Origin: Anaerolineae bacterium
Lineage (GTDB): Bacteria; Chloroflexota; Anaerolineae; JAFGEY01
Assembly: GCA_016783145.1 (NCBI GenBank)
Contig: JADHXD010000032.1
Coordinates: 1 to 39,440, forward strand
Reading direction: 5' to 3'
DNA: 39,440 bases
The position numbers were made by a program, and so were the translations under genes. The notes beneath the pieces are model-generated. The model was given only the letters and a program-made list of their open reading frames with translations. It ran no database searches and was not told the DNA's origin. Below are positions 36,113 through 39,145 of this stretch, piece by piece; position 1 is the stretch's first letter; every line of letters begins with the position of its first letter.

Positions 36113-36177
36113 CGGTGACGTCCCCCTGACGACCGTTGGGGGGCAAGAGGCGGGCGCTCTTGAGTAGGAGAGGTGAC

Positions 36178-37452
36178 ATGACGGACAGTTCACCCCGGGC
36201 CTTGGTAGCCACCCAGGGACACGATGGGCCCCTGACGCACATCGAGCACGCCCGCGAACTAAAGATCCAGCATCTGATGCGCATCCTGGAGGTCACGCGC
36301 CTCCTCAATGCAACGCTGGATCCCGATATTCAGCTCCAGATGATCCAGGACGTGGCCATTGAGCTGACCGAGACAGGGGCCGCTTCCATCTTTCTGCGCG
36401 ACAGCCGGACAGGCGAGCTCTTTTTCCTGTCCGCCCTTGGAGGAGGCGCGGATGGGGAAGGTGGGGGGCAGCTCTTGCGTATCCCAGTTCCCATTCGGGG
36501 GAGCATCGCTGGCTCAGTGGCTACAACGGGTGAACCGGCTGTCGTGAACGATGTCAGCCAAGATGAGCGTCACTATGATGGGGTGGACGCTGAGACCCAG
36601 TTTGTGACCCGCTCCATCTTGGCCGTGCCTCTGATCCGGAGAGGCAAGATCATCGGCACGCTCGAGGTGTTGAACAAGGTTGGTGGGAGGACGTTCACCG
36701 ACGATGACCTGGAACTGCTGACCATGCTGGCTGCTCAAGCCGCTGTGGCCATTGAGAACGCGCGGCTGTTTCAGCAGAGCGACCTCGTCTCCGAGATCGT
36801 CCACGAGCTGCGGACGCCGATGACCTCGATCATTGGCTACACCAGATTGCTGACGCTCGGTCAGGTCCCCGAGGAGTCCAAGAAGCAGTTCGCCGCCGTG
36901 ATCCACAGGGAAGCCACCCGGCTGGGCCATATGGTCAATGACTTTCTGGATTGGGTGCGGCTGGAGGCCGGACGCGTGCAGTTGGCGAGGGAGCCGGTGG
37001 ACGTGGTTCAGCTCGTGAACCACACCGTGCAGGTGATCGAACCGCAAGCCCAGGAGCGCGGCATTGTCGTGGGCAAGAGAGTACCCTTCGAGAGTCTCTA
37101 CGTTATCGGAGATGAGGGACGTCTGAAACAGGCGCTCCTTAACCTGGCCAGCAACGGCGTCAAGTACAATCGCGATGGCGGTCGACTCGATTTCACCGTC
37201 GAACAGGTGGGGGACTCTGTCTCGATCTCGGTGCGTGACACCGGGATCGGGATCCCCGAAGACAGCCTGGACAGGCTCTTCCAGCGTTTCTACCGCGTGC
37301 CCGGCACCGAGGACATTGTGCGCGGAACGGGCCTGGGGCTCAATATCACCAAGTCTCTGGTCGAAGCCCACGGCGGCCGGATAGCCGTGGATAGTACGGT
37401 CGGCGAAGGAGCGACGTTCACCGTCACCCTGCCGCTGGCCGAGCCATCCTGA
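36178..37452 (+). CDS. GAF-domain sensor histidine kinase
   Basis: 424 residues with no membrane segment, so cytosolic. A helical lead and GAF domain (about 30-190) contain [17 protein letters not shown] and [20 protein letters not shown]. The dimerisation domain has the H-box [20 protein letters not shown] (phospho-His about residue 206), followed by the ATPase with N-box [17 protein letters not shown]1 [12 protein letters not shown] and G2 [20 protein letters not shown] precedes ATG 36178. No response regulator gene is adjacent, so it is an orphan kinase in this window. Confidence 0.92.
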
Positions 37453-37586
37453 GCCGGCTGGACGGAACACTCGCAAGTCGCAGATGGTTTTGTCTAGTTT
37501 CTATGTGTGCCTGTAGTCAAGGGCGATCTACCGGGCATGCCCTGCGGGGTTGTGCCCGGATTCCATTCTCTGTAGAAAGGGTCAAG

Positions 37587-38915
37587 TTGAAGCGTTCTGT
37601 GTGGTTATTGGGACTCTTGCTGCTTCTGGTCGGGCTTGTCGCCTGCCAGAAAGCAGCTTCCACGTCAGCCGAGGTGGTGCCGACTGCCACCGCCGAAGCA
37701 ACGTCGTCGCCGGCTGCGGATGGAGCAACGCCAAAGCCCACGGCGACACCGCAGCCTACGGCGATAGCAGCGGCGAGTACACCTACGTCGGCGACAGGAT
37801 CCAAACCGTCTCCGACGCCGGTGGAAGGCGCGGTGCTCTCTCCGACCCCGACTCGCGCCTGGAAGATCCCCCAGGTCAGGGAGAGCGACTGGGTCAAGGG
37901 GGATCGCGGTGCAGGGGCGGTACTGGTAGAGTACAGCGACTTCCAGTGACCGTACTGTGCAGGGTCGGCGACCCTGCTCAATCGTCTGTCAGACGCGTAT
38001 CCGACGGAGCTGTTGGTGGTGTTCCGGCACTTTCCGCTCGTCTCGATCCATGACAAGGCGGTCCCTGCGGCCGAAGCCGCTGAAGCGGCTGGGGCTCAGG
38101 GCCGCTTCTGGGAAATGCACGACCTGTTGTTCGAGCATCAGAGCGACTGGGCGAGCCAGACTCCAGCGGAGGCGATCGGGTTCTTTGCGAGCTACGCCCG
38201 GCAATTGGGGCTTGACGAGCAGCGGTTCCGCCGCGAGCTCGAGGAGGGCACGTATCGCGAGACGGTGCAGCGCCAGTACGACGAGTCTGTCGCTGCCGGG
38301 CTGCGCGGCACGCCAACCTACTTTTTGAATGGGGAGTTGTACGATGGGCCTCGAACAGACTTTGTGTTGGGTGGACTAGCCAAGCTCTACAACTATGATG
38401 GTCCGGCCTATGCGAGGCCGGCTGCGGTCATCGATGCGTCAAAGTCGTACTTTGCAGAGATCGAGACCAGCCAGGGCGACCTGTGCGTGGAGCTCTTTGC
38501 CAAGCAGACGCCCAAGACCGTCAACAGCTTTGTTTTCCTGGCCCAAGAGGGTTACTTTGACGGTGTGCTGTTTCACCGGGTCATGCCTGGCTTTGTGGCC
38601 CAGGCCGGAGATCCCACTGGAAGCGGCTTTGGCGGTCCGGGGTACAGCTTTGAGGACGAGATCGTGCCTGAGCTCAAGCACGATAGCCCAGGGATCCTGT
38701 CTATGGCCAATGCTGGGCCGAACACGAACGGCAGCCAGTTCTTTATCACCTTGAAGGCCGTCCCTGAACTCGATGGCAAGCACACGGTCTTTGGGCGTGT
38801 GGTCAGCGGTATGGAGACGGTCGACAAGCTGACACCTCGCGATCCGCAGGAAAACCCGTACGCGCCGGCGGACTCAATTGTCAAGATGACCGTTGTCTCC
38901 GCCTGTCCCGATTAG
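37587..38915 (+). CDS. DsbA-cyclophilin lipoprotein, candidate selenoprotein (U-P-Y-C)
   Basis: Read through TGA 37947-37949, the protein is 442 residues. TTG 37587 follows AAAGGG by 5 nt. The signal peptide ends in the lipobox LVAC (Cys20), then a Pro/Thr-rich linker (about 25-105). The DsbA-like domain has [18 protein letters not shown] (Sec121, Cys124), [20 protein letters not shown] and cis-Pro [10 protein letters not shown] (about 243). A cyclophilin domain follows from about 288: [37 protein letters not shown]. Chloroflexota relatives I recall have CPYC here. UGA replaces the first, nucleophilic Cys, the frame is intact, and a perfect hairpin follows at 37959-37977. I infer a membrane-anchored extracytoplasmic thiol oxidoreductase/isomerase with Sec. 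Termination at UGA would leave a useless lipoprotein stub. Confidence 0.75.
37959..37977 (+). promoter_or_regulatory. Candidate bacterial SECIS hairpin
   Basis: Nine bases after the UGA, GCAGGGTC pairs perfectly with GACCCTGC around the loop GGC. The loop begins 17 nt after the UGA and starts with G. Stem length and spacing fit the bacterial SECIS model and match the hairpin at 19078-19096. Confidence 0.65.
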
Positions 38916-39010: not shown

Positions 39011-39061
39011 TGATGATCGGGGCCGCCTGCTCTGGCTTGAGAGCCGCAGAGAAAAGGGGAA

Positions 39062-39134
39062 AGCCACCCTGGGGACTTGAACCCCAAACCTGGCGCTTAC
39101 GAAGCGTCTGCTCTGCCGATTGAGCTAGGGTGGC
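39062..39134 (-). tRNA. tRNA-Thr (CGT anticodon)
   Basis: A 73-base cloverleaf on the minus strand. The acceptor arm GCCACCC pairs with GGGTGGC; the D arm is GCTC...GAGC; the anticodon loop TTCGTAA carries CGT; the T arm is GGGG-TTCAAGT-CCCC with discriminator T. The anticodon stem has one A-C mismatch (28-42). CCA is not encoded. The anticodon reads ACG threonine codons. Confidence 0.92.
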
Positions 39135-39145
39135 CAACGCAGACC

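Follow-up and report, generated by a model that had tools for sequence, protein, structure and literature searches.

Gene structure and domain content

A gene that very probably encodes a selenoprotein lies close to the end of the window, by which we mean the whole stretch of 39,440 nucleotides analysed here, from a draft genome of the Anaerolineae (Chloroflexota). The predicted product combines a lipoprotein signal peptide, a linker, a DsbA/DsbG-like thioredoxin domain and a cyclophilin domain. The coordinates of these and of the neighbouring features are listed in Table 1.

Table 1. Features of the DsbA-cyclophilin locus (positions in the window)
Feature	Position	Strand	Basis
GAF-domain sensor histidine kinase, directly upstream of the gene	36136..37452
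Candidate ribosome-binding site AGAAAGGG ahead of TTG start 37587	37574..37581	+	read from sequence
Very probable selenoprotein gene, 442 residues, single in-frame TGA, terminator TAG	37587..38915	+	sequence, Pfam
Lipoprotein signal peptide, lipobox LVAC, Cys20 predicted acylated	37587..37646	+	translation
DsbA/DsbG-like thioredoxin domain (Thioredoxin_4, aa 101-257), UxxC, cis-Pro 243	37887..38357	+	Pfam
UGA, very probably decoded as selenocysteine 121	37947..37949	+	frame, relatives, tree
Proximal hairpin hp1, 8 bp, loop GGC, 17 nt UGA-to-loop, candidate SECIS	37959..37977	+	folding, registers
Distal hairpin hp2, 5 bp, loop GUC, 38 nt UGA-to-loop	37983..37995	+	folding, registers, covariation
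Cyclophilin-type peptidyl-prolyl isomerase domain, aa 290-435	38454..38891	+	Pfam, alignments, AF2 model
tRNA-Thr (CGT), downstream of the gene	39061..39135	-

We take the TTG codon as the start, as the signal peptide and the spacing suggest. The ORF list begins the frame further upstream, at an in-frame ATG (37503) from which it is likewise open. The linker after the signal is rich in Pro, Thr, Ser and Ala and has low model confidence; the pLDDT of the AF2 model (17 sequences, mean 79.4) is below 50 at residues 1-4 and 16-90.

Thioredoxin_4 (Pfam: PF13462) matches with 73.5 bits and DSBA (Pfam: PF01323) with 55.1 bits, both above the gathering cut-off, and the Thioredoxin_4 match runs across the TGA codon. 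Codon 121 falls at the position of the first Cys in the DsbA/DsbG-like CxxC motif (CPYC). The frame reads YSDFQ-U-PYCAGS and continues for another 321 codons to the TAG, exactly as the first-pass annotation had described it when it placed a UGA at the nucleophilic Cys. In the AF2 model residue 121 stands immediately before the helix 122-137. An annotation that treats the UGA as a stop ends the gene at residue 120 and loses both domains.

The Pro_isomerase domain (Pfam: PF00160) scores 160.1 bits, above the cut-off. Of the residues taken to matter for cyclophilin function, Arg331 as the catalytic Arg, Phe336, Gln339, Phe386 and His399 are present and the Trp121-equivalent is Glu394. Among cyclophilin-type isomerases, the best solved chain is 3jb9_d (Ppi1), which aligns with aa 290-429 (E 2.1e-45). 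A thioredoxin-fold fusion is named in none of the solved-chain matches listed (60 of 169). Foldseek against the PDB returned cyclophilin-type matches, and those listed (50 of 1087) include neither a clear two-domain match nor a named thioredoxin-fold fusion; 8j07_S gives a large alignment with a poor rmsd.

Selenocysteine machinery and the use of TGA

The candidate selenoprotein of the first-pass annotation is accompanied in its own genome by Sec machinery. SelB (302 bits), SelD (371 bits) and tRNA-Sec (RF01852, 69.7 bits) are over their cut-offs, and SelD has one in-frame TGA in the motif AAG-U-AAK, which we take to be the catalytic position. The RF01852 cut-off is also exceeded in 5 of 14 control genomes, so the ARAGORN call of a tRNA-Sec with anticodon TCA matters here. 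For SelA, an N-terminal part (positions 1-147 of 455) was detected at a contig end with 151 bits, below the cut-off of 267.9. As the assembly is a draft of 233 contigs (92% complete, 5.5% contamination), the contigs with Sec machinery could be foreign.

TGA is still an ordinary terminator locally. It ends 8 of the 13 other large plus strand ORFs picked in the window, and 4 of the 6 among these with Pfam matches. The codon is therefore not simply reassigned.

The UGA codon in relatives

A search of the class gave matches at E ≤ 1e-30 in 360 of 396 genomes, and many of the lower-ranking matches listed cover the cyclophilin part only; a search of the window's own family covered this genome alone. 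We took the 30 best loci, 100 chosen among the class matches listed and 80 from named genomes. We discarded 57 of the 207 entries because their alignment stopped short of residue 380, and counted the window entry, a duplicate of locus L022, once. The full-length set consists of 149 loci, 130 from the class and 19 from named Chloroflexota. At column 121, 55 loci from 54 genomes have TGA, 75 have a Cys codon (TGC or TGT) and 19 encode another residue. Locus L024, the nearest relative with 57% identity over the columns used for the tree, shares the TGA.

Removing five rows that were identical around the site (two Sec and three Cys, the latter being genes present in two collections) left 144 rows for a tree, calculated with the site masked. 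The named Chloroflexota records that agree around the site with three class loci include one labelled Anaerolineae and one labelled Anaerolineaceae, which points to Anaerolineae as the class. This is a quick LG+G4 tree with SH-aLRT support only and one flagged long-branch pair. At least 11 changes between Sec and the rest are needed on it, 8 of them forced by well-supported branches, compared with 43 when the labels are shuffled; the count is blind to gain versus loss. Sec and Cys states even occur inside one genus code (Sec in G303, Cys in G277). The alternation of Cys and Sec among close relatives, by which the first-pass annotation proposed to judge its candidate, is thus present. These repeated switches offer natural before/after pairs for asking why selenium is employed in extracytoplasmic folding.

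All 53 Sec rows have the second Cys (Cys124) and the cis-Pro. A lipobox-like pattern is found in 52 of the 53 Sec, 62 of the 72 Cys and 16 of the 19 other relatives.

We rejected tRNA-Sec as a marker separating Sec from Cys genomes, as it is over the cut-off in 334 of the 396 class genomes. With presence set at a best E ≤ 1e-10, a cut chosen and read by eye from the table, it was found in 39 of the 54 Sec genomes and in 31 of the 34 among them that are at least 90% complete; 15 and 3 genomes, respectively, are without such a strong match.

The 19 homologs with another residue at the nucleophile column (L174, L181-L183, L190, L193-L195, L197-L200, L203-L208 and L216) have Ser, Thr, Ala, Glu or Asp there, and 18 of them come from family code f27. 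The second Cys is kept in 14 of the 19, and 14 have an additional Cys at the fourth residue before the column, for example YCDFQ-S-x-x-C. These homologs possibly use a different chemistry.

That the UGA is a true stop, owing to a pseudogene or a sequencing error, with the 3' part dead or separately started, is scarcely credible: TGA is formally a stop codon and an internal in-frame TTG opens a frame of 300 aa (38013-38915), but the recurrence of TGA at column 121 in 55 loci contradicts this for the family, one Pfam domain for the most part and a second one entirely are encoded in the 321 codons past it, and the downstream structure follows Sec and not Cys (see below). Decoding of the UGA as another, selenium-free amino acid, by a code change or by near-cognate readthrough, is very improbable too. 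Readthrough is compatible with the sequence alone, but column 121 alternates with Cys and the genome holds Sec machinery together with a TGA-containing SelD; as TGA also still terminates neighbouring ORFs in the window, we rejected a code reassignment.

The finding of related Chloroflexota with a stop codon at the same place argues for a real selenoprotein family and against a broken gene. Comparison of these sequences makes it very probable that the gene is a real selenoprotein of DsbA-like/cyclophilin fusion architecture, a judgement that excludes the enzymology. It adds an exported selenoprotein architecture, present in 54 of the genomes examined.

Hairpins downstream of the UGA codon

The 8-bp hairpin with loop GGC that the first-pass annotation put forward as SECIS-like is exactly as described: its stem (37959-37966 with 37970-37977) is perfectly Watson-Crick paired and begins 9 nt past the UGA. 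The published bSECIS consensus has a loop of 3-9 nt, a stem of 4-16 bp, a G in the first two loop positions, a UGA-to-loop distance of 16-37 nt and an energy ≤ -7.5 kcal/mol. The proximal hairpin hp1 satisfies the rules on loop, stem, G and spacing. The distal hairpin hp2, the counterpart of a conserved hairpin with a CUGGUAG apex in the relatives, is outside the rules on spacing alone. The named hairpin is hence real and suitably spaced, but it is hp2 that is better conserved and covaries.

The 60-nt region after the UGA folds at -21.4 kcal/mol (z -1.87 against dinucleotide shuffles, of which 9 of 200 were equally stable). An 8-bp stem within the SECIS spacing arises in 10% of 5000 synonymous-codon shuffles if G-U pairs are allowed and in 0.46% if only Watson-Crick pairs are. 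The hairpin in the window gene alone is moderately improbable, and its significance comes from the family.

Over the 48 nt after the site, the mean fold z against synonymous-codon shuffles is -1.50 in Sec and -0.36 in Cys genes, with values below -1 in 37 of 53 and 19 of 72 genes, respectively (Mann-Whitney p=3.8e-8, on rows that are not independent). For the family count we used a version of the SECIS rules with a stem of at least 6 bp instead of 4 and the energy limit dropped. A hairpin fitting these rules is present in 49 of the 53 Sec genes, where synonymous shuffling would give 14.4, and in 15 of the 72 Cys genes, where it would give 10.2. Conservation of UGA and hairpin together, which the first-pass annotation had asked for in sister strains, is seen among these more distant relatives in that the hairpins are kept in Sec and not in Cys genes.

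The strongest signal of the register scan is hp2, columns 35-41 with 45-51 (T of TGA = 1). A stem of at least 5 bp forms there in 38 of the 53 Sec genes, where synonymous shuffles predict 9.4, and in 4 of the 72 Cys genes. The hp1 register (i+j=44) is occupied in 18 Sec genes (4.6 expected) and 8 Cys genes, and registers 42-45 pooled in 35 Sec genes. A shifted hairpin at i+j=59 is found in 20 Sec genes (7.0 expected), including 10 of the 15 without hp2. There is an unexplained excess at i+j=47 (24 of 53, 8.8 expected) and at some other registers. A 5-bp stem is absent from all tabulated registers in three of the 53 Sec rows (L040, L161, L167). The two Sec DsbA-cyclophilin genes of genome G293 (L052 and L191) differ from each other and have their hairpins placed differently.

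In 52 distinct Sec rows, 69.4% of the pairs of the two-hairpin structure are formed. Its covariation is 0.236; shuffles give 0.122, none of the 500 reaching the observed value, and sliding the structure along the alignment gives 0.157 at most. Two cruder measures give no clear excess over the slid versions: 12 pairs with a double change are equalled (12) at slide -3, and two of the slides reach 30 further pair types, against 31 in the actual position. Pairing fills 80.8% of the cells of helix 2, which has double changes at 6 of its 7 pairs, and 59.4% of those of helix 1, whose register shifts between subgroups. The hp1 region of the 38 genes bearing hp2, which played no part in picking them, has a mean z of -2.03 against shuffles.

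Seven pairs of a Sec and a Cys gene were picked by eye from the tree, and in all seven the hairpin found at the register of the Sec gene is shorter in its Cys partner (Table 2). The pairs L046/L051 and L133/L149 belong to the same clade and are not independent. The Cys gene L149 retains a 6-bp stem at the proximal position.

Table 2. Hairpin length at the register of the Sec partner in related Sec and Cys genes
Hairpin	Pair (Sec/Cys)	Identity	Stem, Sec to Cys
Distal	L046/L051	81%	8 to 2 bp
Distal	L133/L149	76%	8 to 2 bp
Distal	L147/L142	86%	8 to 2 bp
Distal	L027/L030	73%	9 to 4 bp
Distal	L041/L184	43%	8 to 5 bp
Shifted, i+j=59	L035/L036	83%	7 to 4 bp
Shifted, i+j=59	L156/L155	62%	8 to 3 bp

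A comparable hairpin in SelD

SelD was found at E ≤ 1e-60 in 101 of 120 genomes of the class, and 98 of the 103 matches listed have one TGA. In the distal region (columns 28-49) of 30 such TGA sites the mean z against shuffles is -2.32, and at 18 sites at most 5% of the shuffles are as stable. A hairpin type GGCGCAG-GUN-CUGCGCC recurs there; in the genome of the window the SelD distal loop lies 33 nt after the UGA, within the published limits. Folding is less marked in the proximal region (mean z -1.20, 4 of 30 sites), which lends slight support to a proximal partner hairpin in SelD. A distal hairpin is common to two unrelated genes, the DsbA-cyclophilin gene and SelD. At locus L020 (minus strand), a SelD with an in-frame TGA lies downstream, on the same strand, of a frame which we take to be YedF-like; the two are likely a selenium operon.

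It is unlikely that Sec is inserted with hp1 as the sole SECIS and hp2 as a by-product of codon choice. Such a role for hp1 fits its spacing of 17 nt, within the published 16-37 nt that hp2 exceeds at 38 nt, and also the nearest relative L024 and locus L170, which carry hp1 without hp2. Against it stand the better conservation of hp2 in Sec genes, the double changes in its helix and the comparable distal hairpin after the UGA of SelD.

We tentatively propose instead, as a reading that may well be wrong, that the class uses a tandem SECIS. Its proximal hairpin would be GC-rich and variable in sequence and register; its distal hairpin, with a conserved, G-first apex about 33-38 nt after the UGA, would be the one recognised by SelB. 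If true, the DsbA-cyclophilin gene and SelD would have in common a bacterial SECIS of a separate class, and selenium supply would control two folding catalysts that share a membrane anchor. The tandem hairpins offer a testable hypothesis on what SelB reads in Chloroflexota.

Predicted function and redox partners

In the proposed mechanism, SelB and Sec-tRNA would decode UGA 121, guided by one or both of the hairpins 3' of it. Export of the 442-residue product and its lipidation at Cys20 would follow. With its putative UxxC site of Sec121 and Cys124, the DsbA/DsbG-like domain may make, break or shuffle disulfides of exported proteins, and the attached cyclophilin may isomerise X-Pro bonds of the same clients, so that two folding catalysts would share a single membrane anchor. 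Termination at the UGA would leave only the anchor and linker, as the two active domains sit at this codon or beyond it; the whole activity should therefore depend on selenium. From sequence, we infer Sec insertion in vivo, lipidation, both enzyme activities and the selenium dependence.

A somewhat unlikely alternative is that the protein acts outside the cytoplasm chiefly as a reductase or as a peroxidase-like thiol enzyme, with the cyclophilin as a binding module only. Sec favours nucleophilic attack and reduction chemistry, which suits such an enzyme. DsbD_TM, an outward carrier of reducing power, was found in 28 of 29 Sec genomes and exceeded the cut-off in 26. These 29 were chosen from the 54; 28 of them are at least 90% complete and one (G250) is at 85%. 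The exception is the genome of the window, where DsbD_TM was not found, and the matches in 10 of 14 control genomes mean that its presence is not specific. In favour of a binding module, 45 of the 53 Sec rows have Tyr or Phe in place of the cyclophilin His126-equivalent; against it, the Arg55-equivalent is retained in 45 rows and the Gln63-equivalent likewise in 45. The Glu at the Trp121-equivalent and the loss of the Arg55-equivalent in 8 of 53 Sec rows count against our preferred explanation, a pair of active folding catalysts.

No VKOR was found in the genome of the window at E ≤ 0.001. The flanking ORFs around 96 loci are lineage-specific neighbours, and inspection by eye of their 14 largest clusters brought out no obvious redox partner.

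Comparison with known selenoproteins

The first-pass annotation knew of no lipoprotein fusing a Sec-DsbA to a cyclophilin. This stands as far as the open-licence literature in PubMed Central goes, including the accessible text of PMC13188914, PMC9312934 and PMC1794560 (subscription journals mostly fall outside this scope), where no Sec-DsbA/cyclophilin fusion was met; the selenoproteins of this group are scarcely mentioned there at all. The lipoprotein part of the claim is not new. The NF041057 'Rcas_1661 family thioredoxin-like (seleno)lipoprotein' corresponds to the DsbG-like selenoprotein in the accessible part of PMC13188914, and occurs in the same phylum. Like the window protein with its lipobox and UPYC, it is a lipoprotein with a thioredoxin-like domain and UxxC.

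The NF041057 HMM matches aa 10-254 of the window protein with 106.5 bits, below the cut-off of 190. In the phylum it is over the cut-off in 21 of 301 genomes, and 14 of the 26 matches listed over the cut-off have one TGA, so Sec in such a lipoprotein is already known. Proteins of this type (L233-L252) are about 26-35% identical to the window protein over the aligned domain. Unlike them, the window gene has a C-terminal cyclophilin fused, and the hairpins after the UGA are placed differently. The DsbA-like selenoprotein forms 1 and 2 (Pfam: PF01323) are also described in the accessible part of PMC13188914; form 1 has UxxC in a DsbA-type domain, like the window protein. The words cyclophilin and lipoprotein are absent from the main text of that paper as accessed, which has nothing on a cyclophilin fusion.

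A further comparison is with the Cys DsbA-cyclophilin fusion lipoproteins of Chloroflexota (75 of the 149 loci), which have an identical domain order; TGC or TGT replaces TGA, and the hairpins are near chance level. Sec in a DsbG-like lipoprotein is thus known, and only its fusion to cyclophilin was not met in the open-licence literature searched.

Among the NF041057-type proteins, genomes G617 and G653 (L248, L249) each have two adjacent genes with a TGA at the site. A 680-codon frame in G013 (L253) has two DsbA-like domains, the first with TGA and the second with Cys.
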